The notes beneath the pieces are model-generated. The model was not told the DNA's origin. It saw nothing but the letters and a program-made list of their open reading frames with translations, and searched no databases. DNA of 64,000 nucleotides. It comes from Roseicella sp. DB1501 (GTDB taxonomy: Bacteria; Pseudomonadota; Alphaproteobacteria; Acetobacterales; Acetobacteraceae). The DNA is taken from contig NZ_JABFHG010000009.1 in assembly GCF_013112485.1 (NCBI RefSeq), forward strand, positions 62,001 to 126,000, written 5' to 3'. A program made the position numbers and the translations under genes. Of the stretch, positions 18,859 to 35,114 are shown one piece after another (within the stretch, counting starts at the first letter, position 1; each line of letters starts with the position of its first letter).

Positions 18859-19290
18859 CGGCGATTCCCCGAAGCGGCGTCCGGCCGGTGCGGACCACCC
18901 CGCTCGCGCTTCGGTCGCGGGCGGACGCCATGCATCCGTCGACGGAGGTCTCGCAGGCGGCGGTGAGCGACATGATGCGATTCTTGCGGGAGCGAGGCAT
19001 GGCGCAGAACGCCCAGGCCACCCGCCCAGTGTCAATCTTCGCCACCGTCAATCCTTGGCGCCACCGGGCAGCCCTGCCGCGTCGCGGACCCGGCCGGCCT
19101 TTACATAAGCGAGAGGCACGAGGCCGAGGCTTGATGCCATTCCATACATCATGCCACCGTGAAGGATATTCCATATTCAAGTGCCCATTTCGAAACAAGC
19201 AGCCTTGCGGCGACGGTGTCCGGGGACGCCGACTTCCACGACCGATACCCACTTCGCCGCCCATGCCCTCGATGAATCGGGAGAGAGGCG
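18859..19290. other. Divergent upstream region of the multicopper oxidase operon
   Basis: This 432-base gap precedes the histidine kinase (minus) and the multicopper oxidase operon (plus). The 19120-19200 part is noticeably more AT-rich than its surroundings, with TTGATG at about 19132 and several TATTC/CATAC words, so the operon promoter is probably here. No clear -35/-10 pair, operator or small gene can be defended by eye. Confidence 0.4.
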
Positions 19291-22200
19291 ATGCGTCTGC
19301 GCCACGCATTTGCGATGACCGCGGCGGCCGGCTGCGCGCTGCTATCGTTTCTTGCCGGTTTCGTCGCCGCGCCTGCGGCAGCGCAGCCCACCGCCGCGCG
19401 CCCCGGCGGACAGCCGGGCGCGCCGGCCTGCGGCGCCATCGTCCGCGCGGACATTGTCGCGCTCGAGCAATCCTACCTGCTGAACCGCTTCGGCGCCTTC
19501 GTGCCGGCCGGCATGATGTTCGCGCTGCGCCACGACGTGGTCTCCCTCGATGACGATGGCGAGCTGAAGCCGGGCCGGGTCCGGCTGCGGCGGGAGAAGC
19601 GGCCGCGCCCCCTGGTGCTGCGGGTGAATGAGGGCGAGTGCCTGGAAGTCTCCTTCCAGAACCTGCTGCGCCCGGGCTGGCAGGAGGAGGGCGGCGTGCT
19701 GCCCGATGATGGCGGCAGCCTGCCGGGCCATACCGGCAGCCATCCCGGCGAGGCGCCGCGCCAGCCCCGCCTGCGCCCCGGGCCGGTGAGCCTCGACGCG
19801 CCGCGCACCCGCGCCGCCTCCTTCCACGTCACCGGCCTCGGGCTGGTGCCGATCGCCGAGCGGGACTGCCCGCGCGGCGTGCTCTGCGGCGGCGACGGGT
19901 CCAATGTGGGCATCCCCGGCCGGCAGGGCGTGGTGTTCCATCCCGACACCCCGGCGGCGGTTCGGCAGGGCTACGATCTCGGCTCGCTGGCCCGGCCCGG
20001 GCAGCGCGTCGTCACCCGCTGGCGCGCCGAGAAGGAGGGCGCCTATTTCGCCTATTCGACGGCGGCGCCCGTGGGCGGCGAGGGGGATGGCGGGCAGATC
20101 GGCCTCGGCCTCTTCGCCTCGGTCAATGTGGAGCCGGCTGGCGCGCGCTGGTACCGCTCGCAGGTCACCGAGGAGGAGATGCGGGTCGCGCGCCAGCCGG
20201 TCGAGGCGGGGCGTCACGACTACGCGGCCATCGCCTATGACGGGACGCACCCGTTCCGCCTGATGCCGGATGGCAGCCCGCTGCCGCTGCTGGCCATGCG
20301 CGACGCGCAGAACCGCATCGCCCATGGCGACCTGAACGCGATCATCGTGCTGCCGCGCGGCGCGCCGGGCTGCGATCACGTCACCAGCGATTGCGGCAGG
20401 CCCTTCCGCGAATTCACCGTCATCATGCATGACGAGGTGCCGGCGCGGCAGGCCTTCGCGCCGCTCGACGACGAGAACCACCCGCTCTCCAAGATCCGCG
20501 ACGGCATGGGCATCAATTACGGCGCCTCCGGCATGGGCTCGCTGGTCATGGCGACGCCGGCCCAGGCGAACCGGCCGCCGCTGCGGAACTGCCCGGAATG
20601 CCGGGCCGAGGAGTTCTTCCTCAGCTCCTGGGCCGCCGGCGATCCGGCGCTGATCCTCGCCCATGACGGCGACACCCCCTCCGGCGTGCGCTGGTCCGAC
20701 GACCCCTCCAACGTGCATCACTCCTACCTCGGCGACGCGGTGCGGTTCCGCAACCTGCATGCGGGGCCGAAGGAGACGCATGTCTTCCACCTGCATGCCC
20801 ATCAATGGGTGATGGACCCGCAGGACCCGGATGCCAGCTACCTCGATTCGCAGACCATCTCGCCCGGCGCGACCTTCAGCTACAGCATCGGCTTCGGCGG
20901 CACCGGCAACCGCAACTACACGCCTGGCGACAGCATCTTCCACTGCCACCTCTACCCGCATTTCGCGCAGGGCATGTGGGAACTCTGGCGCGTGCATGAC
21001 AGCTTCGAGGACGGCAAGCGCGGCCCGACCTGGTACCGCCCGGCCGAGCCCGCTGGCCCCGGCAACGATCCGCGCTGGCGCAACCTGCCCGATGCCGAGA
21101 TTGCCGCCGGCACCGCGACACCGGCCCTGGTGCCGATCCCGGGCGCCGCGCTGGCGCCACTGCCGGGCGCGGCCTTCGCGGGATACCCGCACTACATCCC
21201 CGGCGAGACCGGCCACCGCCCGCCGCAGCCGGCCCTCGACATGGACGTGCTGGCCGAGAGCGGCTGGACCGACCCGACGACGGAGCCGCCGGCCGAGGCG
21301 GTCGTCAATGGCGGCCTGCCGCGGCACCGGGTGCGCAGCGGCAGCCTGGTCCGCGCCACCGAGAACGACGAGGTGATGGAGAACGCGCTGGCGCGCGGCG
21401 GCGATGCGGCGCAGGTGATCGCGCAGCGCGTCCGCCGCCAGGCCGATCCCGCCGGCTTCGCCGCCCTGGCCTATGAATGGGGCGCGCTCGACCTCGCCTT
21501 CGTGCCGCAAGCCGGCGACGCCGCGGAACGGCGCGCCATGGAATTCCACGAGGGGACGTTGCAGGCGCCCGGCCTGCGGCCCGTGGCGAACGGCAAGGCG
21601 CCAGTGCCGCACCCCGAATGGTGGCCGGCGCCCGGCGCCTATGTCACCGACCGCGCCCCGACCCTGCCGGGCCAGGCGCCGCCGATCGGATCACCTGGGA
21701 CCGGGGGCGAGGCGCTGTTCTTCGTCAACGGCCGACCTCGCGCGCCCGGGGCGCCCTTCGCCAATCCATGCCCGACCGATGCGCCGATGCGGCACTACCG
21801 CGCCGCCTTCATCCAGACCGAGCTGACCTACAACCGCCACGGCTGGTTCGACCCGCAGGGCCGCATCATCGCGCTCGAGGACGACATCCACCACATCATC
21901 GACCCGGCGACGCGCACGCGGCTGCCGGAGCCGCTGTTCTTCCGGGCCAATTCCGGCGAGTGCATCACCTTCCGCTCGACCAACCTGGTGCCGAGCGCGC
22001 TGAACGTCGACGATTTCCAGATCATCACGCCGACCGACACCCTCGGCCAGCATATCCATCTCGTGAAGTTCGACGTCACCTCCTCCGACGGCTCCGGCAA
22101 TGGCTGGAATTACGAGGACGGCACCTTCTCGCCCGAGGAGGTGCGCGAGCGCGTGCTGCACTACAACGAGGGTCTGCCCGCCGGCGCGACGCCGCTGCAA

Positions 22201-25200
22201 CTGCGCGAGCATCCGCTGTTCCGGCCGGGCGGGACGATCTGGGAAGCGGCCGGTGGCGACGAAAAACACGCCATCCACGGCGGCCTGCTGAAGCGCGGCA
22301 AATGCGACACGCGCAAAGAGAAGGAATCTCTCCCAGCCTATATCAAGCGCCTGAACGAGAACCACCCCTTCTGCGGCGCCCAGCGCACGACGCAGCGCTG
22401 GTGGGCGGACCCAATCCTCAGCCGCCGCCCCGACCGACGCGACCGCGACAACACGCTGCGCACCGTCTTCACCCACGACCATTTCGGGCCGAGCTCGCAC
22501 CAGCAGCACGGGCTCTATGCCGGGCTCGTCGTCGAGCCGGCGAACTCGCTCTGGGTCCGCACCGGCGAGCGGCCGATGACCCCGGAGGAGGCGGCCACGC
22601 TGGCGGGGACGCAGCCGCTGGACCTCGCGGCGCAGGCGGCGTGCCGGGACCGCGCCGAGAGGATGGCGATGGGCGAGCCCGATCCCGCCGCCGCCGATCC
22701 AGCGACCCGGGCGCGCTGCAAGCTGCTCGGCGGCTCCGACCTGACGGTGCCGACCGCCGCGGCGATCCGGCGCGACCGGGACCACCCGCTCGCCGCCATC
22801 GAGCCGCGCCCGGCCCTGCGGCTGCGCGCGGATGGCGGCCCGACCGCGACCATGGCCGATATCGTGGCGCCGCGCTGCGTGCGCGACGGCAACTCCGTCA
22901 GCCAGCCGGACGAAGCGGGCGTCGAGGTGAACCTCGTGCCGGCGGCGGGCCGCACGCCGCGGACCGGCCCGGAGCCGCCCTGCATTCCCGCCGACCACAA
23001 CCGGCGCGAATTCGCCCTCGCCATCGCCGATTTCGGCATCGCCTACACCGCGGCGCTGGAGCCGGTGAACCCCGAGCCGCTCGGCGATTCCGGCCATCGC
23101 GACAACTCGGCGCTCCGCTTCGGCCGGCGCCATGTGGCGGCCACCCCGGCCCGCCCGCTCGGCATCTCCTCCGAGGATCCGGGCAGCCAGTACCTGAACT
23201 ACCGGCACGAGCCATTGGCGCTGCGCATCAGCGAGGCGACGCCCGATCCGGCGCTCGGCGGCTTCGACTACCGCCAGTCGGACCGCAGCGCCGATGGCGG
23301 CCGCGCCTGCGCGCCGGGCGATGCCGATTGCCGCGGCGACATGGCGAACGCCTTCAGCAGCCGGGTGCACGCGCCGCGCGACCGGACCCTTGCCTCCACC
23401 CCGCAGCCGGTCGAGGTGCATGCCGCGACGCGGGAGGCGCTGCGCGGCACCGAGCACGAAGCCAGGCTCGCCGCGGTGGTGGCCAGCGTCGAGCAGTGGC
23501 GTCGTGACTTCAACTGCGCGCTCTATTCCCGGCTGATACTGCCCAATACGGGGGAGGGCGGCGCCTGCGACCCGCGCATCGAGCGGCGTGAGCCCTGGCG
23601 GCTGTTCGGCGATCCGGCCACGCCGATCTTCCGCGCGCATGACGGCGAGCAGGCGCAGATCCGCCTCATCCAGGGGGCGCAGGAGGCGCAGCACATCTTC
23701 ACCATGAACGGGGTGAAGTGGCGGCGCATGCCGGGCTCGGCCGGCTCCGGCTTCATCAATGCGCAGCCCATCGGCATCTCCGAGCATTTCGAGGCCGACA
23801 TCCGGGCGACGCGGTTCAACGCCCCGCTGCTCGACTACCTCTATTTCGGCTCTTCGGTGGATCAGCTCTGGGACGGCATGTGGGGCATCATGCGGGTGAC
23901 GGTGCCGGACCACGCGCCGCCCACGAGCCCGGCGAATGCCCGCCCGGCCCCGGGATCGCGGGCGGCCGGGGGCGAGAGGCAGGCCGCGCCGGTCGACGAC
24001 ATCGCCATGCGCCTCGTCCGGCCCGCCCTCGCCGCCGCGGATGCCGCCGGTCCGGGCACGCCAGGGCCATTGCCGCCAGGGCCGTTAGTGCCAGGGCAGG
24101 CGGCGCGCGTCGCGCCGCCGCCCGCCGCCGATCAGGCGACGGCCCTCGCCGCGGTCATGCGGCTGCCGGCCGCCCTCGGCCGTCGCGGGCAGCCGGCCGC
24201 CGCGGCGCCGGCCCGCGCCGCGCCGACGCTCGCCCCATCTGCCGAGGACGGCGCGGTCGACTGGCAGCGGGCGGTCTGCCGCGCGCAGCCGGGCCGGCCC
24301 CTCGTCTATCGCCGCTTCGATGTCAGCGCCGTGCTCGCCTGCGATCTGCGGGGCGATTGCGGCGGCGCCCAGTCGGTGGGCATCGAATACAGCCGCCGCT
24401 TCGGCATCCAGGACGACCGCGCCGTGGTCTACGTGCTGAACGAGGAGCGACGCTGCGACGGCACCTCGCCCGAGCGCGGCTGCGCCATCGACCGCCTGCC
24501 CGGCAACGACAAGGTGCTGGAAGGGCTGCGGGCCGAGTTCGCCGCCGGGCGGAGCCTGGAGCCGCTGGTGCTGCGCGCCCCGGCCGGCGCCTGCCTCGAG
24601 GTGCTGCTGCGCAACCACCTGCCGGCCTCGCCCGAGGACCGCGCCTCCGGCACGGAGGGCAGCCCGCCGCGCGAGCTCGAGGAGCGGCGCGCCTATCACA
24701 ACTTCCTGCCCATGATCACCGACGGCTTCAACGTGAACCAGTTCCGCATGTCCGGCACGGTCGGGCTGTCGGCGCCGCGGGTGGCGCAGAACCCGCTCTC
24801 GGCCGACGGCACCAATCTCGGCTGGAACGGCCTGCAGCTCGACCGCCTGCGGGGCCTGCCGGAGCGCGTCTGGGGCCAGGGCTCGCTGGTCTCCCCCTGC
24901 CGGCCGGGCGATGCGGGCTGCGGCATCGACGAAACGCAGGGCGGCATGCGCCGCTCCTTCTGGAGCGCCACGGATTTCGACGATACCGGCCTGCCCGTCG
25001 AGTTCGGCGCCCTGCCGCTGCGCAGCTTCGGCGATCCGATCAAGCAGCCGATGCACGGGCTCGGCGGCGCGCTGGTGATCGGGCCGGAGGGCTCGGAGGT
25101 CTGCGCCGACAACCGCTTCGCGCAGCGGCTCGGCAATGGCCGCGTGATGCCGGGTGGCGTCAGCGCCGAGATCTGCCGGCGCGACGGCACCCGCTATGTC

Positions 25201-25860
25201 GATCACGTGCTGATGGTGCAGGACGCCGTCAACGCCACGCGCGGCGGCATGCCCGTGCCCAATCTCGCGGGCGCCGAGGAGCCGGACGATTACGGCGTGA
25301 AGGCGCTGAACTACCGCACCGAGCCGCTCTGGGCGCGCAGCGGGAACGAGGCGAGCATCCCCTTCGAGGAGCGCAACGAGGCCGATTACGCATCGGTGCT
25401 GAGCTCGGGGCGGATCGGCGCCACGCGCTGCGCCGCCGGCATCCCGCTCTCGGCGCGCCTGCCTGGCCAGCCCTGCGACCCCGAGACGCCCATCTTCACG
25501 GCGCGCTCCGGCGAGGCGGTGCGGCTGCACCTGGTGCATCCCGGCGGCCATACCCGCCAGCAGGGCTTCGCCGTCAGCGGCCATGGCTGGAGCGCCTTTC
25601 CCTGGACGCCCTCGCCGCGCGGCCCGGAGGCGCCGCCGGTCTTCGACGCGGGCTACCCCTCCTACCGCGGGGGCGTGACGAACGGCTTCGGCCCGATGAT
25701 GGGCGTCACCTACGGCCTGCTGGCCGGCGGCCGGTCGGGCCTGGCGATGGACTACCTGATCCGCAGCCAGGCGAGCTTCCTGTTCGATGGCGGGCTGTGG
25801 GGCCTGCTGCGCGTCGAGCCCCGGCCGGCCGCGGCGCCCGCCGGCCCGCGGCGACGCTGA
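19291..25860 (+). CDS. Giant exported multicopper oxidase, MofA/MnxG-like
   Basis: At 2,189 residues this is an unusually long multicopper oxidase. A signal peptide (about 1-32, ending PAAAQP) sends it outside the membrane. Unit one (about 45-570) holds the C-terminal-type copper sites: HVFHLHAHQW (His497-His504) and HCHLYPH with Cys552, His557 and the axial-type Met562. Unit two (about 690-1510) holds the N-terminal-type sites: QHIHLVKFD (His921, His923) and FTHDHFGP (His1062, His1064). Unit three (about 1650-2180) keeps cupredoxin-like sequence without HxH pairs. This permuted site order and the GNGWNYED-type words match the Mn(II)-oxidase class. It would take electrons from metal ions and reduce O2. 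It heads a six-gene operon. Activity on manganese is inference. Confidence 0.88.
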   Translation: MRLRHAFAMTAAAGCALLSFLAGFVAAPAAAQPTAARPGGQPGAPACGAIVRADIVALEQSYLLNRFGAFVPAGMMFALRHDVVSLDDDGELKPGRVRLRREKRPRPLVLRVNEGECLEVSFQNLLRPGWQEEGGVLPDDGGSLPGHTGSHPGEAPRQPRLRPGPVSLDAPRTRAASFHVTGLGLVPIAERDCPRGVLCGGDGSNVGIPGRQGVVFHPDTPAAVRQGYDLGSLARPGQRVVTRWRAEKEGAYFAYSTAAPVGGEGDGGQIGLGLFASVNVEPAGARWYRSQVTEEEMRVARQPVEAGRHDYAAIAYDGTHPFRLMPDGSPLPLLAMRDAQNRIAHGDLNAIIVLPRGAPGCDHVTSDCGRPFREFTVIMHDEVPARQAFAPLDDENHPLSKIRDGMGINYGASGMGSLVMATPAQANRPPLRNCPECRAEEFFLSSWAAGDPALILAHDGDTPSGVRWSDDPSNVHHSYLGDAVRFRNLHAGPKETHVFHLHAHQWVMDPQDPDASYLDSQTISPGATFSYSIGFGGTGNRNYTPGDSIFHCHLYPHFAQGMWELWRVHDSFEDGKRGPTWYRPAEPAGPGNDPRWRNLPDAEIAAGTATPALVPIPGAALAPLPGAAFAGYPHYIPGETGHRPPQPALDMDVLAESGWTDPTTEPPAEAVVNGGLPRHRVRSGSLVRATENDEVMENALARGGDAAQVIAQRVRRQADPAGFAALAYEWGALDLAFVPQAGDAAERRAMEFHEGTLQAPGLRPVANGKAPVPHPEWWPAPGAYVTDRAPTLPGQAPPIGSPGTGGEALFFVNGRPRAPGAPFANPCPTDAPMRHYRAAFIQTELTYNRHGWFDPQGRIIALEDDIHHIIDPATRTRLPEPLFFRANSGECITFRSTNLVPSALNVDDFQIITPTDTLGQHIHLVKFDVTSSDGSGNGWNYEDGTFSPEEVRERVLHYNEGLPAGATPLQLREHPLFRPGGTIWEAAGGDEKHAIHGGLLKRGKCDTRKEKESLPAYIKRLNENHPFCGAQRTTQRWWADPILSRRPDRRDRDNTLRTVFTHDHFGPSSHQQHGLYAGLVVEPANSLWVRTGERPMTPEEAATLAGTQPLDLAAQAACRDRAERMAMGEPDPAAADPATRARCKLLGGSDLTVPTAAAIRRDRDHPLAAIEPRPALRLRADGGPTATMADIVAPRCVRDGNSVSQPDEAGVEVNLVPAAGRTPRTGPEPPCIPADHNRREFALAIADFGIAYTAALEPVNPEPLGDSGHRDNSALRFGRRHVAATPARPLGISSEDPGSQYLNYRHEPLALRISEATPDPALGGFDYRQSDRSADGGRACAPGDADCRGDMANAFSSRVHAPRDRTLASTPQPVEVHAATREALRGTEHEARLAAVVASVEQWRRDFNCALYSRLILPNTGEGGACDPRIERREPWRLFGDPATPIFRAHDGEQAQIRLIQGAQEAQHIFTMNGVKWRRMPGSAGSGFINAQPIGISEHFEADIRATRFNAPLLDYLYFGSSVDQLWDGMWGIMRVTVPDHAPPTSPANARPAPGSRAAGGERQAAPVDDIAMRLVRPALAAADAAGPGTPGPLPPGPLVPGQAARVAPPPAADQATALAAVMRLPAALGRRGQPAAAAPARAAPTLAPSAEDGAVDWQRAVCRAQPGRPLVYRRFDVSAVLACDLRGDCGGAQSVGIEYSRRFGIQDDRAVVYVLNEERRCDGTSPERGCAIDRLPGNDKVLEGLRAEFAAGRSLEPLVLRAPAGACLEVLLRNHLPASPEDRASGTEGSPPRELEERRAYHNFLPMITDGFNVNQFRMSGTVGLSAPRVAQNPLSADGTNLGWNGLQLDRLRGLPERVWGQGSLVSPCRPGDAGCGIDETQGGMRRSFWSATDFDDTGLPVEFGALPLRSFGDPIKQPMHGLGGALVIGPEGSEVCADNRFAQRLGNGRVMPGGVSAEICRRDGTRYVDHVLMVQDAVNATRGGMPVPNLAGAEEPDDYGVKALNYRTEPLWARSGNEASIPFEERNEADYASVLSSGRIGATRCAAGIPLSARLPGQPCDPETPIFTARSGEAVRLHLVHPGGHTRQQGFAVSGHGWSAFPWTPSPRGPEAPPVFDAGYPSYRGGVTNGFGPMMGVTYGLLAGGRSGLAMDYLIRSQASFLFDGGLWGLLRVEPRPAAAPAGPRRR

Positions 25861-25872
25861 GGAGGGCGGCGC

Positions 25873-26520
25873 ATGGCGATCCAGGCGGTGAACAGCGCGG
25901 CGGGCTTCGATGCCGGCTGGTGGCTCGATTGGGCCGAGGGCATCGCGCCCGGCGCCGCCCCCGCCGCCCGGCGCTGCCCGGTCGGCGATCTGCGGGCGAT
26001 GCGCCTGGCGCCGCGGCTGGAAGGCCAGATGAACGTGCCGGCGACCTATGCGCTGAGCGAGACCACGGTCGAGGTCCAGGCCGCGACGCTGGAGCTGCGC
26101 TTCTGCGGCGCGGGCTTCGATTGCAATCAGTTCGAGGGGGACGGGTTGCTGGTGGTCGCCGTCCCGCCCGCGCCGGCCAGGGCGGCCGCCTCCCTCTCCC
26201 TGGCCTTCGACCGGCCGGTCCGCGGGCTGGGCGCCTATGTCGCGGCCGGCTCGACGCAGCCGGGAAGCGGCGCCGGCTTCACCGCCAGGCTCTGGGTGCG
26301 GACCGGCCCCTCCGGCCGCTTCGTGCTGGCGGCTTCCAGGCGCGGCACGAGCGGGGCGCATGGCGTCTTCGACACGCCCCCCGGCGTCCTGCGCGGCGCG
26401 CCCTTCCTCGGCGCGATCTCCGATGCCGATGACATCCAGGCCGCCCGCTTCGAGCTGCTGCCGGCCAGTGGGGTGCGGGTGGGCCAGCTCGCGCTCTCGC
26501 ATCTCCATGCCCTGAGCTGA
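25873..26520 (+). CDS. Hypothetical protein, multicopper oxidase operon
   Basis: The 215-residue product is not recognised. It starts 12 bases after the oxidase stop, behind a GGAGGG site. The sequence reads as a beta-rich domain: YALSETTVEVQAATLELRF, then an SLSLAFDRPVRGLGAYVAAG strand set and a final VGQLALSHLHAL. No signal peptide is apparent. That is surprising for a partner of a secreted oxidase, unless it is carried out with it or acts inside. Two Cys lie close together (CGAGFDC). The layout of an edge-strand jelly roll is possible but not shown. Confidence 0.7.
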   Translation: MAIQAVNSAAGFDAGWWLDWAEGIAPGAAPAARRCPVGDLRAMRLAPRLEGQMNVPATYALSETTVEVQAATLELRFCGAGFDCNQFEGDGLLVVAVPPAPARAAASLSLAFDRPVRGLGAYVAAGSTQPGSGAGFTARLWVRTGPSGRFVLAASRRGTSGAHGVFDTPPGVLRGAPFLGAISDADDIQAARFELLPASGVRVGQLALSHLHALS

Positions 26521-26527
26521 GACGCCG

Positions 26528-28399
26528 ATGCGACGCCGCCTCGCCCTGCTTGCCTGCCTCGGCCTGACGGCGACCGGCCTTGCGCAGGAGCCCGACGCCG
26601 CCCGGTCCGGTGCGACGCTGCAGGACGGGCTGCGCATCGCCTGGCGCTACCTGCCGCAGGCCGATCCCGGCATCGGCACGCTGGAGGTCGAGATCGCCGA
26701 TGCCGAGAGCGGCGCGCCGGTGCGCTACGAGCGCGGCCGCCTCGTCGCCTGGCTGCAGCGCCGGCGCGCGGCCCTGCCGGAGGCCGAGATCGCCTGCGCC
26801 GACCGGGTGCGCCTGCTGGCGCGCCAGGGCATCGGCCAGCGCGCCGATATCGACCTCAACACCTACCGCCTCGTCACGCTGAACGCCGATGGCAGCCTCG
26901 CCGTCATCAACCCCTTCGTGCCGCTGAACAACGCCAAGCTGGAAACGATCCTCGAGCTCGGCGGCACGCCGCGCGGCTGGCTGCTCATCCCGGAGCGGCT
27001 GGAGGCCTGGGTGGTGCTGTCGGCGCCGGCGCGGCTGGTGCAGGTGGATCTCCAGGCGCGGCGCATCGGGCGCGCCATCGCGCTGCCGGAGGCGCCGGGC
27101 GAGGCCATGCTGGCCTGGCACGGCCCGACCGGGCAGCTCTGGCTGGCCCTGGCGGGACGGGACGGGCTGGGGCTGGTGGCGCCCGACCGCGCGGAGGCGG
27201 CGCTGCGCCTCCTGCCCGGCCCGGCGCCCACCGCCCTGCTCGCCGCCGAGGCCCTGGACGGGCCGGTGACGGGACATGCGGACGGGGTGGTGGCATTGCA
27301 CCTGCCGGAGGCTTCGCGGCGCTGGCGCGTGCCGGGCGGCGGCGCGGTGCGCCTGCTGCGCCACAGCCTCCCCGCCGGCCGCATCGTCGCGGCCATGGCG
27401 GCGGGCAGCCTCGCCTGGATCGACCCCGCCGCGCCCGATGGCGCGCCGCCCGAGCGCCTGCTGCCACTGGGCCATCCGGTGACGGCGCTGGCGCTCGCCG
27501 ATGGCGGCCGGCGCGCCCTGGCGCTCGGCGGCGGACGGGCCAGCCTCGTCGATCTCGCCACCGGCCAGGTCGAGGCGCGGATGGAGACGCTGCCGCAGGC
27601 GCACGAGCTGCTGCTGACAGACCGCTTCGCCTATGCGGTGAGCCTGCCGGAGGGGCGCGGCACGCTCTGGCCGCTCGCCGAGCTGCGGCAGGGCCGGGTC
27701 AGCCCGGTGGAGGTGACGCTGGGGCGGGCGGAGGCCGGGCTCGACATCGGCCCGGCCGCCCGCGCCGCCCCGGTCCCGGCGGGCAACGGCATCCTCGTCG
27801 CCGTCCCCGCCGACGGCATGGTCTACCAGTATGGCGAGGGCATGATGGCGCCGATCGGCAGCTACTCGAACTACCGCCGCGCCGCCCTCGGCCTGCATGT
27901 CCTCGACCTGTCGCCACGCGAGGTGGCGCCCGGCCGCTACCGCAGCCCGGTGCGGCACGGCCAGGGCGGCCCGCACGAGCTGGTGCTCGCCGGCGCCTCG
28001 CCGCGCTTCGCCGCCTGCGGGCCGCTGCAACTGCCGGCGACGGCCGCGGCGGCCGCCCTGCCCAGGACGCTGCTGGGGGCGGCGCTGCAGGTGGCGCTGG
28101 CAGGGATCGAGCGGCGCGGCGAGGCGGGGACGGCCATCCGCGTCCGCGTCAGCGAGCTCGCCGACGGCGCGTCCCGCCCGGTCGGCGACCTCGCCGATCT
28201 CGAACTGCTGCTCTTCGATCCCCGCACCGCCTGGGAAGCCCGCGCCGGGCTGCGGCCCGAGGGCGAGGCGGGGCATTACGCCGCAAGCCTCACCCTGCCG
28301 GCCGGGGCGAGGCCCGAGGCGATGGTGGCGAGCCCCTCGCGCCACCTGTCCTTCGCCACGGGGCATCTCGGCCCGCTGCCGATGGCGGCGGCGCGATGA
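26528..28399 (+). CDS. Exported beta-propeller-like protein, multicopper oxidase operon
   Basis: The 623-residue protein has a short signal peptide (MRRRLALLACLGLTATGLAQ) and then repeated strand blocks with conserved RxVQVDLQARR-, ASLVDLATGQVEARM-type segments at about 170-380, as in quinoprotein or YVTN-type seven-bladed propellers. Before the propeller, residues 30-90 form a separate beta domain. After it, residues 520-610 form another (VRVSELADGASRPVGDLADLE). No haem or PQQ ligand motif is obvious. It lies 7 bases after the 215-residue gene and overlaps the SCO gene by 4, so it is co-translated. A periplasmic docking or cofactor role for the oxidase is inference. Confidence 0.72.
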   Translation: MRRRLALLACLGLTATGLAQEPDAARSGATLQDGLRIAWRYLPQADPGIGTLEVEIADAESGAPVRYERGRLVAWLQRRRAALPEAEIACADRVRLLARQGIGQRADIDLNTYRLVTLNADGSLAVINPFVPLNNAKLETILELGGTPRGWLLIPERLEAWVVLSAPARLVQVDLQARRIGRAIALPEAPGEAMLAWHGPTGQLWLALAGRDGLGLVAPDRAEAALRLLPGPAPTALLAAEALDGPVTGHADGVVALHLPEASRRWRVPGGGAVRLLRHSLPAGRIVAAMAAGSLAWIDPAAPDGAPPERLLPLGHPVTALALADGGRRALALGGGRASLVDLATGQVEARMETLPQAHELLLTDRFAYAVSLPEGRGTLWPLAELRQGRVSPVEVTLGRAEAGLDIGPAARAAPVPAGNGILVAVPADGMVYQYGEGMMAPIGSYSNYRRAALGLHVLDLSPREVAPGRYRSPVRHGQGGPHELVLAGASPRFAACGPLQLPATAAAAALPRTLLGAALQVALAGIERRGEAGTAIRVRVSELADGASRPVGDLADLELLLFDPRTAWEARAGLRPEGEAGHYAASLTLPAGARPEAMVASPSRHLSFATGHLGPLPMAAAR

Positions 28400-28941
28400 C
28401 CCGGCGGCAGCTCGCCCTCGCCGCGCTGGCGGCGGCGCTGGCCAGTCCCGGTGCGGCGCAGGCCCCCGGCCTGCCCGGCGTGGTGCTGCTGGACCAGGAC
28501 GGGACCGGCCGGGCGCTCGCCGATCTCGCGCGGGGGCGCGCCGTCGTGCTCGGCTTCTTCTTCACCGGCTGCGCCACGATCTGCCCGCCGCAGACCGCCG
28601 CCATGCAGGCGCTGCAGGAGGCGCTGGCGGAGCAGCCCGGGAAGCGGCCGCTGCTGCTCTCCATCTCCCTCGACCCGCTCGGCGACACGCCGCAGGCGAT
28701 GCGCGCCTATGCCGCCCGCTTCGGCCTCGCGCTGGGGGCCGCGCCCGGCTGGTTCCTGCTCGGCGGCGATCCCCGGGCCCTGCTGCGCGTCTGGACCGCC
28801 TTCGAGCAGCCGACAAGCCGGCCGGAGGAGCACGCCGCGCAGCTCTGGCTGGGCGCGCCGGAGGGGCGACCATGGCGGCGCGTCGGCGCGCTGACCCCGA
28901 CCGGGCGCCTCCTGGCCATGCTGCGGGAGATGGCGGGGTGA
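28396..28941 (+). CDS. SCO1/SenC family copper-handling protein
   Basis: This 181-residue exported thioredoxin-fold protein has the copper ligands of SCO proteins: Cys59 and Cys63 in FTGCATICPP (CxxxC) and a downstream His146. After a signal peptide (LALAALAAALASPGAAQA) come GVVLLDQDGTGRALADLARGR and LLLSISLDPLGDTP, both typical. SCO proteins deliver copper or reduce thiols at copper sites, classically the CuA centre of cytochrome oxidase. Here the position inside a multicopper oxidase operon makes copper loading of that oxidase the likely job. ATGA overlaps join it to the gene before, and its stop overlaps the GTG start of the next. Confidence 0.92.
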   Translation: MTRRQLALAALAAALASPGAAQAPGLPGVVLLDQDGTGRALADLARGRAVVLGFFFTGCATICPPQTAAMQALQEALAEQPGKRPLLLSISLDPLGDTPQAMRAYAARFGLALGAAPGWFLLGGDPRALLRVWTAFEQPTSRPEEHAAQLWLGAPEGRPWRRVGALTPTGRLLAMLREMAG

Positions 28942-30251
28942 GGCGCCGCGCGCGCGCCGCCTGGGCCGCGATCCTGCTCGCCGCCTCGGCGGGCGGCGCC
29001 GCCGCGCAATCCGGCCGCGCGCTCTACCAGGGCCACGCGCCCTTCGCCGCGGGGCGCGAGGCCACCGCCAACCGGCTGCCCCCCGCCCATGCCGCCTGCG
29101 CCAACTGCCACGGCGCCGATGCGGCGGGCCGGCGCGAGGGCGGCGTGGTGGCGCCGCCGCTCGGCTGGGCCGCGCTGACCCGGCCGGGCCAGGGCGCGGG
29201 CGCCTATGCCGAGGCGGCGGCGCTGCGGGCGGCGGTCACGCACGGCATCGGCCGCGACGGCCGCAGCCTCGACCCCGCCATGCCGCGCTACCGGCTGGAG
29301 GCGGGCGAATGGGCGGCGCTGCTCGACTATCTGCGCATCGCCGGCACGCCGGCGGACCGGCCGCCGGGCGTCGCCGCCGACCATGTCGCGCTGGGCACCG
29401 TCCTGCCCCTCTCGGGGCGCGCGGCGGCGACCGGCGCGGCCGTGCTGGCAGGGCTGGAGGCCGGTCTGGCGGAAGCGCGCGTGCATGGCCGCCGCCTCGT
29501 GCTGCAGGCCGTGGACGGCGCATCCCTGGGCACCGTCCCGGCCGTCAGGCGGCTGCTCGCCCGGCCCGTCTTCGCCCTGCTGGGCGGGATCTGGCCCGAG
29601 GATGCGGCAGCGGAGGCGCTGCTGGCCGAGGCGCGGGTCGCGCATATCGGCTCGCTGCTGACCCGCGCCCGGGAGGATGCGACGGGCGCCTGGGCGGTCG
29701 ACCTGCTCGCACCGCTCTCGGCGCAGCAGGCGACGCTGGCGGCGGCGCTCCGGCATTGCCCGGCGGAGCCGCGCCTCGGCCTGCTGGTCGCGCCCGTGGA
29801 GGCCGGCGGGCCGGGGACGACCTGGCTGGCGGACCCGGCTGGCCTGATGCAGGCGGTCGGCGCCGCCGGCCCGGCGGGCTGCCTCGGCACCAGCCTCGCC
29901 GGAGCCGCGCGGATCGATGGCCGGCGCCTGCCCGCGGGATGGCGCTGGCAGGTCGTGCTGCCCTTCCCGGCGGCGCTGCTCGAAGGCGAGGGGGCGGCGC
30001 GGCCCGATCCATGGCGACGGCTGGGCTTCGCCGCCGCCCGGCTCGCCGTGGAGACCCTGGCGCAGGCGGGGCTGGTGCTGACGGAGCGGGCGCCGCTCGC
30101 GGCGCTGCCCGCGCATCTCGAACCATGGCCCGGCGCCGCGCTGCACTTCGGCCCGCGCCGCCGCCAGGGCTGGGACCCTGGCCTGATCGAGCTCTCCGCG
30201 CCCGCGCCGGCCACCGACGCCGTGGCGCCACCGACCCCAGAGGGAGGCTGA
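28938..30251 (+). CDS. Cytochrome c domain fused to a periplasmic-binding (LivK-like) domain
   Basis: The 437-residue exported protein begins with GTG overlapping the SCO stop. After a signal peptide (AAWAAILLAASAGGAAAQ) there is a class-I cytochrome c of about 100 residues with haem site CANCH (Cys54, Cys57, His58) and a later AMPRY methionine as probable axial ligand. From about residue 150 the sequence turns to a type-I periplasmic-binding fold: VALGTVLPLSGRAAATGAAVLAGLE followed by VFALLGGIWPEDAAAEALL. A monohaem c domain would accept electrons from the oxidase, and the second domain might bind a ligand or partner. MofC of Leptothrix, next to MofA, is also haem-binding, which supports the parallel. 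Confidence 0.85.
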   Translation: MRRRARAAWAAILLAASAGGAAAQSGRALYQGHAPFAAGREATANRLPPAHAACANCHGADAAGRREGGVVAPPLGWAALTRPGQGAGAYAEAAALRAAVTHGIGRDGRSLDPAMPRYRLEAGEWAALLDYLRIAGTPADRPPGVAADHVALGTVLPLSGRAAATGAAVLAGLEAGLAEARVHGRRLVLQAVDGASLGTVPAVRRLLARPVFALLGGIWPEDAAAEALLAEARVAHIGSLLTRAREDATGAWAVDLLAPLSAQQATLAAALRHCPAEPRLGLLVAPVEAGGPGTTWLADPAGLMQAVGAAGPAGCLGTSLAGAARIDGRRLPAGWRWQVVLPFPAALLEGEGAARPDPWRRLGFAAARLAVETLAQAGLVLTERAPLAALPAHLEPWPGAALHFGPRRRQGWDPGLIELSAPAPATDAVAPPTPEGG

Positions 30252-30252
30252 G

Positions 30253-31809
30253 ATGCGCGTTCCATCGGAGAGGCGACGGCGGCGGACCGTTCGGCGCCGG
30301 CTGGCCGGCCTCGCCCTGCTGGGCTGGGTCGGCACGGGCGGCGGACCGGCCCAGGCGCAACCCCCGCCCGTGCCGACGACCAGCTTCACCTTGGTCGGCC
30401 ATATCGAGCGCTTCACCCTCGACAATGCCGGCGATCCGCTCTCCGCGGCGGTGATGACGGTGCGTGGCATCCCGGTGGTGCTGCCGCGCAACCTGCTGAT
30501 CACCCTGCCGGGCCGCTACATGACGGCGCAGGACCTGTTCCGCGGGCCGGCGGGCGCGGCGGTGCTGCAGGAGAGCGGGCTGGCCCTGGCCGACGACACG
30601 GCGCGGCCGCCGGTGCCCTTCGAGGCGGAACTCCTCGGCAATGTCGTCGAGGAGACGGTGAACAACCTCCGCCGCGCGCGCTACATCGCCGGCGTGGTCC
30701 GCATCAGCCAGGGCGCGCTGCATATCGGCGAGGGCTACATCCAGGCCATCGATGCGGCGACCGGCGAGATGCGCATCGGTGACAAGCTCAACACCGCCGG
30801 GGCGCGGGTGCGGCTGAACGACCCGACCGGGATCTACGGCGTCGCCGCCACGGCGCTGCCCGCCGGCACCCTGTCCTTCGATCCCCGCTTCGCCCTGGAC
30901 GAGGAGAACGCGCCCGTGCATGCGCGCACCGGCTTCCCGGTCTGCGTGCCCGCGCCCAGCCGCGAGGCGGCCTGCCCGCCCGGCAACCGCCTGGCGGGAT
31001 CGCTGCGCTTCACCTGCGGCAAGCAGGCGACGCCCGGCGTGGCGGCGCTGCACGCCACCTGCGACCCGAAGCGCCCGGTGCCGCTCGCCGTGGGCGACCA
31101 TGTGACCTATGCCGGGATGATCGTCCCCGATCCGGCCGGCGGCTTCGTCGTCGCCGCGCATGGGCTGGAGGCGGAACTCGGGATCTACACCTCGCCGGGC
31201 GTCGAGCCGGCCTATGTCTTCGTCGAGGAGGCGATCCAGGGCACCAAGGGCGAGGAATTCGCCGGCATCCCGCAGGAGGAGACCACACGCTTCCGCATCG
31301 TCGGCTTCACCTCCGACCCGACGCGCAATGTCGAGGTCTGGCTGGTCGACAGCGATCGCAAGCGGCCGAGCCCAGGGGCGCAGGACCCGCCCTGGCCCGG
31401 GACCTCCTTCACCGGGCCGGGCGGCCTGGCGCCGTCCAACGGCCCGCAGCTCGGGCGCTTCCGCAACACCTGGCCGGCCAAGGACGATGCGCGGCCGGTG
31501 CGCCGCGACGTGCTGGTGCGCGTGGTCGGCACGCCATGGGTGAAGACGCCGGCGGGCATCCGGACCAATGGCTACCTGGCCCCGGTCGGCGAGTACATCT
31601 ATCCGGAGCCGACCAGCTTCGGGCAGCGCGGCTTTCCCGTCCCGGTGCCCTTCGAGAATTTCTGCTTCCTGCGGGCTGGCGGCGGCACGCACGAGACCGT
31701 GCAGGGCGGCACCGTCACGCTCGGCGCGCTCGATCCGTTTCCTGACTCGGGGCATGCCGCGCCGCAGCCGGTCGGCAACGGGCCGCGGACGGCCTGCGAC
31801 GGGGAGTGA
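30253..31809 (+). CDS. Exported hypothetical protein, last gene of the multicopper oxidase operon
   Basis: The 518-residue product is unrecognised. A signal peptide (about 15-36, LAGLALLGWVGTGG then AQAQ) precedes a segment with IPVVLPRNLLITLPGRYMTAQDLF and a beta-rich body. IHIGEGYIQAIDAATGEMRIG, DHVTYAGMIVP and RFRIVGFTSDPTRNVEVWLVD suggest OB-fold or similar barrels. Four Cys at about 235-275 could form two disulfides. It begins one base after the stop of the cytochrome gene. Its constant presence with the oxidase would need a neighbourhood survey; its role is unknown. Confidence 0.75.
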   Translation: MRVPSERRRRRTVRRRLAGLALLGWVGTGGGPAQAQPPPVPTTSFTLVGHIERFTLDNAGDPLSAAVMTVRGIPVVLPRNLLITLPGRYMTAQDLFRGPAGAAVLQESGLALADDTARPPVPFEAELLGNVVEETVNNLRRARYIAGVVRISQGALHIGEGYIQAIDAATGEMRIGDKLNTAGARVRLNDPTGIYGVAATALPAGTLSFDPRFALDEENAPVHARTGFPVCVPAPSREAACPPGNRLAGSLRFTCGKQATPGVAALHATCDPKRPVPLAVGDHVTYAGMIVPDPAGGFVVAAHGLEAELGIYTSPGVEPAYVFVEEAIQGTKGEEFAGIPQEETTRFRIVGFTSDPTRNVEVWLVDSDRKRPSPGAQDPPWPGTSFTGPGGLAPSNGPQLGRFRNTWPAKDDARPVRRDVLVRVVGTPWVKTPAGIRTNGYLAPVGEYIYPEPTSFGQRGFPVPVPFENFCFLRAGGGTHETVQGGTVTLGALDPFPDSGHAAPQPVGNGPRTACDGE

Positions 31810-32116: not shown

Positions 32117-33598
32117 ATGACGTTCCCCTTTTCGCGCCGCGCCTTCTCCGCCTTGTTTCCCGCATTGCCCTTCACGGCCGCGGCCCAGCCGGCCGCCCCT
32201 GTCCCCGCGCCGCCCTCGGGCCAGGTGGACGAGGAAAGGATCCCGCCTCTCGGTCCCGCCCAATCGCCTGACCAATTGATGGAGCGCACCCGCCATCGCC
32301 GCGCTGTGGAGGCCGCGATCTGGGGCATGCCAGCGGTCAATTACGACCTGATGCGGCAGGAAATGCTCAAGGCCGGCGGCACGGAAAATCAGATCATCTA
32401 CTGGGGCCGTCCCCTGGACTGGCGGAATCAGACGCTCACGCCCAACCCGGACACGCTCTACTTCATGAGCTTCTTCGATCTGAGGGTAGGCCCGCTGGTG
32501 ATCGAGGTCCCGCCGGGCGACGCCGGCGGCTCCCTCAACGGCAACATCGTCAATCTCCGGCAGATGCCGCTGGAGGATGTCGGCCTGCTCGGCGTGGACC
32601 GGGGCGTCGGCGGCCGCTTCGTCCTCCTGCCGCCGGGCCAGGCCGAGCCACCACTCCCCGCTGGCTACACCGCGCTGCCCTGCGACACCCTCGGCGGCTA
32701 TGCGCTGTTCCGCGCCAATCTCGCCAGCCACGGGGAGGAGGATGTGCGGCGCTCCCTTGCCTACGGGCGGCGCGTCCGGATCTATCCCCTCGCCCAGGCC
32801 GCCAACCCACCGCCGAACGCCCTCACCGACGCGAAGGACGTGATCTTCAACTCCACCATCCGCTACGATGCCAGCTTCTTCGACAACCTGAACCGCATCG
32901 TGCAGGCCGAGCCCTGGCTGCCGCGCGACCGCCTGATGATCAACACGCTGCGCAGCCTCGGCATGGAGAGGGGCAAGCCCTTCAACCCGGACGCGCCGAC
33001 CCGCACGCGTTTCGACGCCGCGATGCGAGAGGTGCACGCCTATCTCGGCGCGATGTACGAGAGGGGGTGGGAGCCGTTCTTCGCGAACACGAACTGGCGC
33101 CCCGCCGCCGACGCCGAATTCGTGAAGCTCCAGGTCACCAACTACAGCGACACGGAAGCATACCCGAGCGATCTGCGCGGCCTGGCCTACACTTACGGCT
33201 ATATCGGCCTCAAGCGCCTCGGCGTCGGCCAGTTCTACCTCATTGCAATCCATGACAAGGACGGCAAGGCCCTTGAAGGCGGCCAGACCTACCGCCTGCG
33301 CGTACCCCCGAATGTCCCGGTCGAGCAGTACTGGTCCGTCACCGCCTATGACCGCGAGAGCCACGCCCTGATCCGCGACATGCCGCGCGCCAGCCGATCC
33401 TCACAGGTCGCGGAGATGGCGCGGAACGCCGACGGCTCCATCGACATCCTCTTTGGCCCCTCCGCTCCGTCCGGCCGGGACGCGAACTGGATCCCCACCG
33501 ACCCGCGGCGCGGCTTCGAGTTGATGTTCCGCGTGTACGGCCCGAGGCCCGAATTCTTCCAGAAGCGCTGGGTCCTCCCCGACATGGAGCGGATCTGA
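32117..33598 (+). CDS. Exported DUF1254/DUF1214 protein (first of tandem pair)
   Basis: The 493-residue protein has a twin-arginine-like leader (FSRRAFSALFPALPF, cleavage after AAAQ). The N-terminal DUF1254 domain is marked by AIWGMPAVNYDLMRQEM and TPNPDTLYFMSFFDLRVGPLVIEVP. The C-terminal DUF1214 domain is marked by LVGQFYLIAIHDKDGKAL-like sequence, YWSVTAYDRESHALI and the RGFELMFRVYGP end. The family is widespread and exported, and its biochemical function is unknown. GAGAAGGA lies upstream of the ATG. The paralogue follows after 28 bases, and the multicopper oxidase operon ends 307 bases before. Confidence 0.88.
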   Translation: MTFPFSRRAFSALFPALPFTAAAQPAAPVPAPPSGQVDEERIPPLGPAQSPDQLMERTRHRRAVEAAIWGMPAVNYDLMRQEMLKAGGTENQIIYWGRPLDWRNQTLTPNPDTLYFMSFFDLRVGPLVIEVPPGDAGGSLNGNIVNLRQMPLEDVGLLGVDRGVGGRFVLLPPGQAEPPLPAGYTALPCDTLGGYALFRANLASHGEEDVRRSLAYGRRVRIYPLAQAANPPPNALTDAKDVIFNSTIRYDASFFDNLNRIVQAEPWLPRDRLMINTLRSLGMERGKPFNPDAPTRTRFDAAMREVHAYLGAMYERGWEPFFANTNWRPAADAEFVKLQVTNYSDTEAYPSDLRGLAYTYGYIGLKRLGVGQFYLIAIHDKDGKALEGGQTYRLRVPPNVPVEQYWSVTAYDRESHALIRDMPRASRSSQVAEMARNADGSIDILFGPSAPSGRDANWIPTDPRRGFELMFRVYGPRPEFFQKRWVLPDMERI

Positions 33599-33626
33599 GC
33601 CACCGGCGAAGCAGGAGGATACCCCC

Positions 33627-35114
33627 ATGACGCGCACCAGCAGTGGCCTCTCCCGCCGCCATGCCCTGCTCACCGGCGGCGCCACGCTCGCGGCCTCGGC
33701 GACGCCGCCAGGTTCCGCCGCGGCCCAGCAACCGCCCGCCGCGTCCGGCGGCTTCGAACGCGGCTATCCCAGCGGCGACACCTCGCGCCGTCTCCGCGAC
33801 GAGGCGGACGTCCAGCGCGCCGTCATCGCCTACCGCTTCTGGTATCCGACCGTGTCCGTGGAGGGCATCTTCAACGGCAACCGCGAGATCGGCCTGCAGG
33901 ACAACCAGGCGATCGGGATCGCTTCGACCGGACCGCGCCAGGTCGGGTTCACCCTGAACTCCGACACGCCCTACGGCTCCGCCGCGCTCGACCTGACGGA
34001 CGGCCCGATGGTGATCGAACTGCCCCCTGGCGGCTTCATCGGGCTGGTGGACGACCACCATCAGGGCTGGGTGCAGGATCTGGGCCTTCCCGGCCCGGAT
34101 GAGGGCAAGGGCGGCAAGCACCTCGTCCTGCCGCCCGGTTACAGCGGCCAGCCGCCGGCCGGGTATCATCTCGGCCATTCCTCATCGCTCAAGACCCTTT
34201 TCGCCGTCCGTTCGCTGCCGGTCGGCGGGGATGCGCGCGCGGCGCTGGAGGCGCTGCGGCGGATCAGGGTTTACCCGCTGGCGAGCGCGGGCAATCCGAA
34301 GCCGCTCGACTTCGTGGATACCAGCGAGAGGAGGATGGATTCCACCTGCCTGCGCTGGGAGGACAACATCCAGTTCTGGGAGGTCCTGCACCGCGTGCTC
34401 GACGCCGAGCCGCTGGTCGGGAAATTCGTCCCGATGTACGGGCTGCTCGCCGAACTCGGCATCGAGAAGGGCAAGCCCTTCGCGCCCGATGCCCGCATGA
34501 AAGCCATCCTGGAACAGGCCGCGCGTGCCGGGCGCGACCAGATGCTGGTCGCCGCCTTCGACAGCAACCGGCCGGACCGGGTGAACTGGCCGGACCGCAA
34601 ATGGGAATGGGTCGGCCTCGTCCCCGGCAGCGCGCAGTTCGAAACACCGGCCGGCATCGACCTCGAGGCCCGTGACCGCTGGTTTGCCCAGGCCATCGTC
34701 ACCTCGCCCGCGATGTTCCGTCGCACGGCCGGTGCAGGGTCGCTGTACTGGCAGGCGACCAGGGACAGCGCCGGCGCCTTCCTCGATGGCGGGAAATCCT
34801 ACCGGCTGGCCGTGCCGCAGCCGGTGCCAGGCAAGCTGTTCTGGTCGGTCACGGTGTACGACACGGCCACCCGATCCCAGGTGCAGACGGACCAGGACAA
34901 GGCGGCGCTCCGCTCGCTGTTCGAGCTGAAGGACGCGGCGGGCTCCGGTTCGGTCGACCTGCATTTCGGCCCTGCGGCGCCGGCCGGGCAGGAAGGGCGG
35001 TGGATCAGGACCGCGCCCGGACGCGGCTGGTTCGCCTATTTCCGCATCTACGGCCCGGAGCAGGCTGCCTTCGACCGGAGCTGGAAGCCTGGGGATTTCG
35101 AACGGTCGGGCTGA
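33627..35114 (+). CDS. Exported DUF1254/DUF1214 protein (second of tandem pair)
   Basis: The 495-residue paralogue of the previous gene has a clearer Tat-type signal (SRRHALLTGGATLAAS, cleavage near AAAQQ). The same domain order holds: AYRFWYPTVSVEGIFNGN and LNSDTPYGSAALDLTDGPMVIELP in DUF1254, then SYRLAVPQPVPGKLFWSVTVYD and WFAYFRIYGPEQAAFDRSWKPGDFE in DUF1214. GVPVPG-type loops differ, so the pair diverged some time ago. An AGGAGG site lies upstream. The two are probably one transcript and may form a heteromer. Function unknown. Confidence 0.88.
   Translation: MTRTSSGLSRRHALLTGGATLAASATPPGSAAAQQPPAASGGFERGYPSGDTSRRLRDEADVQRAVIAYRFWYPTVSVEGIFNGNREIGLQDNQAIGIASTGPRQVGFTLNSDTPYGSAALDLTDGPMVIELPPGGFIGLVDDHHQGWVQDLGLPGPDEGKGGKHLVLPPGYSGQPPAGYHLGHSSSLKTLFAVRSLPVGGDARAALEALRRIRVYPLASAGNPKPLDFVDTSERRMDSTCLRWEDNIQFWEVLHRVLDAEPLVGKFVPMYGLLAELGIEKGKPFAPDARMKAILEQAARAGRDQMLVAAFDSNRPDRVNWPDRKWEWVGLVPGSAQFETPAGIDLEARDRWFAQAIVTSPAMFRRTAGAGSLYWQATRDSAGAFLDGGKSYRLAVPQPVPGKLFWSVTVYDTATRSQVQTDQDKAALRSLFELKDAAGSGSVDLHFGPAAPAGQEGRWIRTAPGRGWFAYFRIYGPEQAAFDRSWKPGDFERSG

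Follow-up and report, generated by a model that had tools for sequence, protein, structure and literature searches.

The locus examined here, part of a 64-kb stretch of Roseicella sp. DB1501 DNA (the window), raises the question of what a giant multicopper oxidase oxidizes and whether the five genes that follow it belong to the same system. Six genes lie on one strand between positions 19291 and 31809 (Table 1). The first-pass annotation had described them as running in one direction with intergenic gaps of 12, 7, -4, -4 and 1 bases, a layout borne out by the open reading frame coordinates and by the GTG start codon of gene 5, a gene set within a longer open frame. A simple GC3-based caller also called four of the six, with GC3 values of 0.92–0.94. 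The same caller favoured minus-strand frames across the SCO1 and cytochrome genes, and the calls of these two genes therefore rest on homology. A divergent HWE histidine kinase gene is located upstream of the operon.

Table 1. Genes of the Roseicella sp. DB1501 operon (positions in the 64-kb window)
Feature	Position	Strand	Basis
Gene 1, MnxG-type giant multicopper oxidase, 2189 aa	19291..25860	+	NF041487, PDB 9bxa, copper ligands
Gene 2 (g2), 215 aa, predicted CBM-like beta-sandwich	25873..26520	+	AF2, Foldseek
Gene 3, YVTN/cytochrome-d1-like beta-propeller protein	26528..28399	+	Pfam matches of aligned homologues
Gene 4, SCO1/SenC copper chaperone with CxxxC	28396..28941	+	PF02630; CxxxC by eye
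Gene 5, fusion of mono-haem cytochrome c (CxxCH) and periplasmic-binding-protein-like domain	28938..30251	+	PF00034, homologues
Gene 6 (g6), 518 aa, all-beta protein	30253..31809	+	AF2; cassette comparison

The oxidase, which carries an N-terminal secretion signal as read by eye, matched the NCBIfam model NF041487 (copper_ox_MnxG) over seven stretches with an E-value of 6.4e-222, and its best PDB match was MnxG (9bxa; E 2.8e-81). In the same PDB sequence search, laccases and ascorbate oxidase gave E-values of 2e-4 or worse (2e-4 for a small laccase). Among the NCBIfam models, the CopA-type and ascorbate oxidase models (TIGR01480 and TIGR03388) yielded 0.29 and 0.33, both below 10 bits. No classical Cu-oxidase Pfam exceeded its cut-off, the only match being Cu-oxidase_2 with 17 bits against 20.4. 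The first-pass annotation had named a kinship with laccases or nitrite reductases as a refuting outcome, and the profile and PDB sequence searches gave no sign of it. That the protein is one of the giant Mn(II) oxidases of the MnxG family, the kind to which the first-pass annotation had assigned it, is strongly supported by the model, the PDB sequence match and the tree. Unlike Pseudomonas putida-type MnxG, the oxidase scored only 739.6 bits against an equivalog cut-off of 3100 bits and, as judged by NF041487, is a relative within the MnxG family and not an equivalog. The oxidases of loci L127 and L128, which have P. putida-like operons, likewise fell under this cut-off (2183 and 1925 bits). 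Since the Roseicella score lies far below it, the function of the oxidase could have shifted from that of MnxG.

The copper sites previously read from the protein, with C-terminal-type motifs preceding N-terminal-type ones, were located at the residues described: motif C comprises His497/500/502/504, motif D His551-Cys552-His553 with His557 and Met562, motif A His921/923, and motif B His1062/1064. All copper ligands, ten His and one Cys, were invariant in an eight-sequence alignment, as was the axial Met. Among 95 relatives scanned, 84 carried all four motifs in the order C-D-A-B, including a Bacillus-type MnxG, and on this sequence comparison the reversed order is not due to chance. The marine Bacillus/Priestia MnxG (PDB 9bxa) shares the reversed order and homologous stretches along the chain, although it consists of 1227 aa compared with 2189 aa in Roseicella. 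A Priestia plasmid locus (L013) lacked the propeller, SCO1, cytochrome, g2 and g6 genes.

Three of the five partners could be related to known families. Gene 4 matched PF02630 (E 4.6e-16), and gene 5 matched PF00034 (E 1.4e-5), with the CxxCH and MP motifs of its cytochrome invariant in 10 aligned rows. The second half of the gene 5 product is related to periplasmic binding proteins, as judged from its homologues, 7 of 10 of which matched Peripla_BP_6; the Roseicella copy fell below threshold. The gene 3 product had no Pfam match of its own, and among its aligned homologues 6/10 matched Cytochrom_D1 and 6/10 the YNCE propeller models. Signal peptides were recognized by eye in the products of genes 3 and 5.

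The operon had been viewed initially as a complete copper-loading plus electron-accepting set. The logic of SCO1 plus cytochrome holds. Because a multicopper oxidase is able to pass electrons to O2 itself, however, a complete electron-accepting set can only be conjectured. The partner set is also less new than had been implied, because the published P. putida mnxG set, as far as it is given in PMC11409713, and MofC-like proteins of iron oxidizers, described as cytochrome c plus a periplasmic-binding domain (PMC5566968), match it. Table 4 of PMC11409713 (2024) lists for the mnxG operon of P. putida GB-1 mnxG itself, a beta-propeller, two SCO1 proteins, a cytochrome c/substrate-binding fusion and SurA. 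As in that operon, the Roseicella genes start with the giant oxidase, followed by propeller, SCO1 and cytochrome c/binding fusion, with g2 inserted after the oxidase. Unlike that of GB-1, the Roseicella operon has one SCO1 gene, no second SCO1 or SurA-like gene among the six, and g2 and g6 in addition. In P. putida MnB1, the ccm genes are reported to be involved in the oxidation of Mn (PMC11409713). The same kinds of partner as in GB-1 were found in further genomes with high MnxG model scores: L127 has a second SCO1 and a SurA-like gene, and L128 appears to (the SurA-like genes were recognized by eye, by their sequence and position). The core set is therefore already known from Pseudomonas, and what appears to be new is its extension by g2 and g6, of which no earlier report was found in the accessible literature.

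The two proteins that had been listed as unknowns, g2 and g6, had no Pfam or NCBIfam match. Across the family, 20 of 21 g2 members lacked a Pfam match and one matched DUF1521; for g6, all 30 members lacked one. The AF2 model of g2 (pLDDT 84, pTM 0.85) gave 4 PDB matches at E<=0.001 among 1423 in Foldseek, the best being CBM28 (E 2.5e-4, TM 0.43/0.51), and g2 is predicted to be a CBM-like beta-sandwich; no obvious signal peptide was seen by eye. The g6 protein, in which a signal peptide was read by eye, was modelled with similar confidence (pLDDT 86, pTM 0.85), and none of its 1302 PDB matches reached E<=0.001, the matches being weak, partial and OB-fold-like only. Across 13 cassette loci, g6 showed 46–67% identity to the Roseicella protein and was better conserved than the propeller, SCO1 and cytochrome in 12 of the 13 comparisons; it therefore looks like a core component that is conserved alongside the oxidases of this clade. 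Planctomycetota/Bacillota bins (L060, L063, L068) at first seemed to contain an oxidase fused to g6, but the iterated profile behind this result had taken in oxidase sequences and the fusion was an artefact. With a clean g6 profile built from 29 rows, these oxidases no longer matched. The divergent giant neighbours in five Planctomycetota/Bacillota bins still matched it (E 9e-27 to 4e-44), and the link between them and g6 was kept for this reason.

Both g2 and g6 recur beside an MnxG-type oxidase in distantly related bacteria. All six genes in the Roseicella order were present at 14 of 80 chromosomal and 1 of 10 plasmid loci and in 1 of 7 further genomic stretches retrieved. Carriers of the cassette include Rhizobium sp. 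Root483D2 and Methylocystis suflitae. The 15 tree rows with this gene order formed one clade (SH-aLRT 100) spanning Pseudomonadota and Nitrospirota. The single-clade statement applies to the Roseicella gene order only: a chromosomal Methylomonas locus (L039), where the full six-gene set is arranged differently, fell outside, and g2 also occurs outside the clade at L032, L034, L039, L041, L050, L054 and L079. The clade of MnxG-scoring oxidases (L126–L128) was separate and not its sister, with several lineages in between, in a tree built without authenticated sequences of P. putida MnxG, McoA and MofA. Motif A reads HIHLPKWD in L126–L128 versus HIHLVKFD in Roseicella, the His pair being kept.

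Among loci with at least 7 kb downstream of the oxidase (56 chromosomal, 9 plasmid), the propeller was found nearby at 52 of the 56 chromosomal loci, SCO1 at 42, the cytochrome at 42 and g6 at 27. The first-pass annotation had regarded relatives without any partner gene as evidence against the proposed system. Such relatives do occur, since all five partners were missing nearby at 4/56 chromosomal and 2/9 plasmid loci, but the criterion is too weak for them to outweigh the association. The pairwise identities of the six proteins co-vary (rho 0.62–0.87, 91 pairs). This locus alone in the host genome (6 Mb) matched the cytochrome portion of the profile for the fusion, and other SCO1, propeller and binding-protein homologues are present. 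The genome also encodes an RTX animal-haem peroxidase with MopA-like architecture.

We propose, with a probability of roughly 0.7, that these genes constitute an extended mnx operon in which a SCO1-loaded, exported oxidase turns Mn(II) into Mn oxide with the assistance of its partners. Mn(II) is, we infer, the most likely substrate. In this reading, the SCO1 protein would supply the copper of the exported giant oxidase, which would convert Mn(II) into an oxide of Mn(III)/Mn(IV) either on the cell surface or within the periplasm. Electrons would run via the type 1 copper and the trinuclear cluster to O2. Electron shuttling or help in assembly may be what the cytochrome c/binding-protein fusion and the propeller contribute, and g6, less certainly g2, may be an accessory protein binding the oxidase, the mineral or cell-surface polysaccharide.

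One alternative, which we consider unlikely, is an oxidase that works on iron or takes part in the extracellular transfer of electrons to metals, roles put forward for the OmpB/MofA homologues of iron oxidizers and reducers. The Leptothrix discophora MofABC and OmpB/MofA clusters likewise encode both a large multicopper oxidase and a cytochrome c, in some cases together with SCO1 (PMC5566968, PMC8218464), SCO1 and cytochrome occur in OmpB-type iron clusters too, and the MofC-like proteins of iron oxidizers resemble gene 5 (both PMC5566968). However, the closest profile is that of MnxG, a demonstrated Mn oxidase in P. putida, and the Pfam search of the six genes revealed neither a multihaem cytochrome nor a porin. 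MofABC includes MofB, a peptidyl-prolyl isomerase; no MofB-type isomerase Pfam match was obtained in the six genes or the next gene (32117-33598).

Also improbable is a non-metal substrate such as iodide, phenolics or another reductant, with Mn oxidation being incidental. The ioxABCDEF cluster resembles the Roseicella operon in its six same-strand genes and in combining a multicopper oxidase, IoxA, with SCO1/SenC partners (PMC9415286). As this iodide oxidase cluster carries three SCO1/SenC genes, the substrate cannot be told from the presence of SCO1 next to an oxidase, and PMC11995701 cautions on the substrate promiscuity of such oxidases in nitrifiers. Nevertheless, IoxA and IoxC (62 and 71 kDa) are far smaller than the Roseicella oxidase, classical oxidase models matched the latter only marginally, and the accessible description of iox, on which this comparison is based, mentions neither a propeller nor a cytochrome/binding fusion (PMC9415286). 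Finally, a mere adjacency of six functionally unconnected genes is very improbable: the loci without partners and the other partner homologues in the host genome would agree with it, but the overlapping or nearly overlapping genes, the recurrence of propeller, SCO1, cytochrome and g6 near the oxidase, the correlated divergence of the six proteins and the single occurrence of the fusion's cytochrome part argue otherwise.

Beyond the extended mnx operon itself, we tentatively suggest that the six-gene version might represent an MnxG lineage of its own, one whose system cannot work without g6 (together with g2), which would join the oxidase in an exported complex that handles Mn oxide or Mn(III). 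The members of this lineage and the neighbours that carry g6, found in Nitrospira, Nitrosomonas, methanotrophs and several alphaproteobacteria, might then be widespread putative Mn oxidizers, and electrons obtained from Mn might enter respiration through the cytochrome.

Biological Mn oxidation influences the cycling of metals and carbon, and its physiological functions are described as unknown (PMC11930936). The cassette bears on the published question of what putative Mn oxidases do in nitrifiers, as raised in PMC11995701, and points to two oxidase-accompanying protein families without a Pfam or NCBIfam model. It provides a defined gene set for testing Mn oxidation in Rhizobium, Mesorhizobium, Methylocystis and nitrifiers.

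The six genes of the operon encode, in order, a 2,189-aa multicopper oxidase, a 215-aa protein (g2), a propeller protein, SCO1, a cytochrome c/binding-protein fusion and a 518-aa protein (g6). An ORF listing placed all six at the positions reported in the first-pass annotation and reproduced its gaps of 12, 7, -4, -4 and 1 nt; its outline of the operon is correct and the observation is real. A simple GC3-based caller recovered 4/6 genes (GC3 0.92–0.94) and chose minus-strand frames instead at the SCO and cytochrome genes, the calls of which are therefore based on homology. Judged by eye, all products except g2, five in total, carry an N-terminal Sec-type signal.

Coordinates of features in and around the operon and elsewhere in the host genome
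Feature	Position	Strand	Remark
PAS/HWE histidine kinase	window 16969-19035	-	divergent, upstream of operon; possible regulator
Start codon of gene 5	window 28938		GTG
Tandem DUF1254/DUF1214 pair	window 32117-35114	+	immediately 3' of operon
RTX animal-haem peroxidase	L137:2915-9997 (G000:C23, ~300.9-308 kb)		outside the window

The oxidase matched the NCBIfam MnxG model NF041487 with E 6.4e-222 (739.6 bits, the model cut-off being 3100), and the CopA-type and ascorbate oxidase models with E 0.29 and 0.33; from Pfam, Cu-oxidase_2 alone appeared, under its cut-off. The best PDB match was MnxG (9bxa, E 2.8e-81), followed by a small laccase (1.9e-4). NCBIfam and PDB searches favoured MnxG, to which the oxidase had been likened, over laccase, CopA-type and ascorbate oxidases. 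The copper residues agree exactly with their earlier description and are invariant across eight aligned relatives. Following the general ligand scheme of multicopper oxidases, we take H497, C552, H557 and axial M562 to be the T1 copper ligands, and H500, H502, H551, H553, H921, H923, H1062 and H1064 to be those of the trinuclear cluster. All four copper motifs, in the order C-D-A-B, were found in 84 of the 95 oxidase sequences scanned; the remaining 11 missed at least one strict pattern, partly from incomplete sequences, with a near-match in several. Because the 84 include the Priestia plasmid relative (L013), which matches 9bxa across almost its full length (1700 bits), this order is a trait of the family and not special to the window. 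Motif A reads HIHLVKFD in the window and most relatives, and HIHLPKWD in three MnxG-scoring anonymous stretches (L126, L127 and L128).

Table 4 of PMC11409713 gives the putative mnxG operon of Pseudomonas putida GB-1 as mnxG, a YVTN beta-propeller, two SCO1 genes, an ABC substrate-binding/cytochrome c protein and SurA, and PMC8218464 depicts a similar gene set. L127 (MnxG-model score 2183 bits) contains oxidase, propeller, SurA-like, SCO1, SCO1 and cytochrome fusion genes; L128 (1925 bits) appears to have the same order, its second SCO match slightly overlapping, and the L126 contig (2414 bits) stops inside the propeller. The window propeller and cytochrome proteins can be aligned with their counterparts in these genomes. 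The P. putida-type operon and the window have a common core of oxidase, propeller, SCO1 and cytochrome fusion, whereas the window differs by the presence of g2 and g6. With the mnxG operon already in print, the core belongs to a recognised kind of operon; as far as our literature searches show, the conserved g2/g6 extension and its breadth are new.

Gene neighbourhoods covered 91 oxidase loci including the window, 66 with at least 7 kb of downstream sequence. The chromosomal loci are the best 80 of at least 582 relatives among 592 candidate stretches, a set biased to the query; partners were counted at 56 of these and at 9 plasmid loci.

Partner genes near the oxidase, and identity of the window to 13 other loci in window order
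Gene	Chromosomal loci	Plasmid loci	Identity
Oxidase			52-74%
g2	18/56	1/9	20-46%
Propeller	52/56	7/9	29-69%
SCO1	42/56	7/9	31-71%
Cytochrome fusion	42/56	6/9	29-67%
g6	27/56	1/9	46-67%
Propeller + SCO1 + cytochrome	40/56	6/9	

None of the five partners was found at 4/56 chromosomal (L023, L055, L062, L074) and 2/9 plasmid loci (Nonomuraea L012, Priestia L013), each with at least 7 kb downstream. All six genes occur in window order at 14 of the best 80 chromosomal loci (L015-L022 and L024-L029), 1/10 plasmid loci (L005), 1/7 anonymous stretches (L129) and the window itself; Methylomonas L039 has all six in a different order, giving an any-order total of 15/80 chromosomal loci. Some cassette genes are broken into pieces in L020 and L029. 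In L029, from Siccirubricoccus sp. G192, four genes (oxidase, propeller, cytochrome, g6) are each spread over two or three frames, which may reflect decay or assembly error. The g6 gene lies upstream of the oxidase in many Nitrospira bins, and g2 occurs outside window-order loci at L032, L034, L039, L041, L050, L054 and L079, some matches being weak. In three plasmid loci, L008 (Shinella), L010 (Paracoccus yeei) and L011 (Roseivivax), the gene directly 5' of the MnxG-like oxidase is divergent and encodes a serine protease, which the annotation of two of them calls trypsin-like. Planctomycetota/Bacillota bins L056, L058, L060, L063 and L068 carry, on the minus strand beside the oxidase, two divergent giants, one of ~850 and one of ~1500 aa, each resembling g6 in its N-terminal part; the larger of the two in L060 shows, by eye, cadherin-like repeats and a dockerin-like end.

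No Pfam match was obtained for g6 in 30/30 members, and its confident all-beta structure model had no significant fold match. For g2, 20/21 members lacked a Pfam match, and the predicted model resembled a CBM-like sandwich with moderate significance (4/1423 matches at E<=0.001). Identity of g6 exceeded that of propeller, SCO1 and cytochrome in 12/13 comparisons, the exception being L005, which is the closest relative and has a split g6. Pairwise distance correlations among the genes were all positive (rho 0.62–0.87, 91 pairs; descriptive only, because the pairs are not independent), as expected of a cassette inherited as one unit.

A tree of 69/95 oxidases (1463 columns, quick LG+G4 search without bootstrap), built without authenticated P. 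putida MnxG, McoA, MofA and OmpB and after omission of 26 fragments, near-duplicates and, for speed, some others, joined 15 window-order sequences in one clade (support 100; window-order L026 and L029 are absent from the tree). Nearest to it were g6-bearing Nitrospira, Methylococcaceae (L039 included) and others, and L126-L128 formed a separate clade (support 100). Among plasmid records, 30/72,556 match the oxidase, the best being Roseomonas gilardii pRo-1 (76%), with six genes in the same order and g6 annotated as two CDS. The oxidase family is rare in evenly drawn genome samples: it occurs in 4/299 Pseudomonadota genomes (the window's own included, one marginal) and, at E<=1e-30, in 6/369 genomes of the class of genome G102, itself counted. 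Within the window's family, g6 was detected in 5/150 genomes, its own included (3 strong and 2 weak matches), and was absent from both same-genus genomes listed in that sample. This patchiness, together with the plasmid copy, suggests by inference that the cassette was acquired horizontally.

Within the 6-Mb host genome, this locus is the only match to the cytochrome segment of the fusion profile, the propeller scores 747 bits here versus 91.5 for the next match, and SCO1 has three copies. Elsewhere in it, the RTX peroxidase gene is an open frame coding for 2361 aa or more that combines animal haem peroxidase and Ig-like sequences with RTX calcium-binding repeats; its product resembles MopA (described in PMC6247904) in architecture and is a possible second Mn-oxidation enzyme. 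Clusters with like components carry out iodide oxidation (PMC9415286) or are associated with iron (PMC5566968), and both argue against certainty about the substrate. PMC11409713 implicates ccm genes in Mn oxidation. Mn(II) oxidation by a SCO1-loaded, exported oxidase is the most likely mechanism: SCO1 would supply copper to the oxidase, which, once exported, would oxidise Mn(II), electrons passing from the T1 copper through the trinuclear cluster to O2, with the cytochrome fusion and propeller as putative helpers and g6 and g2 as putative accessory proteins.
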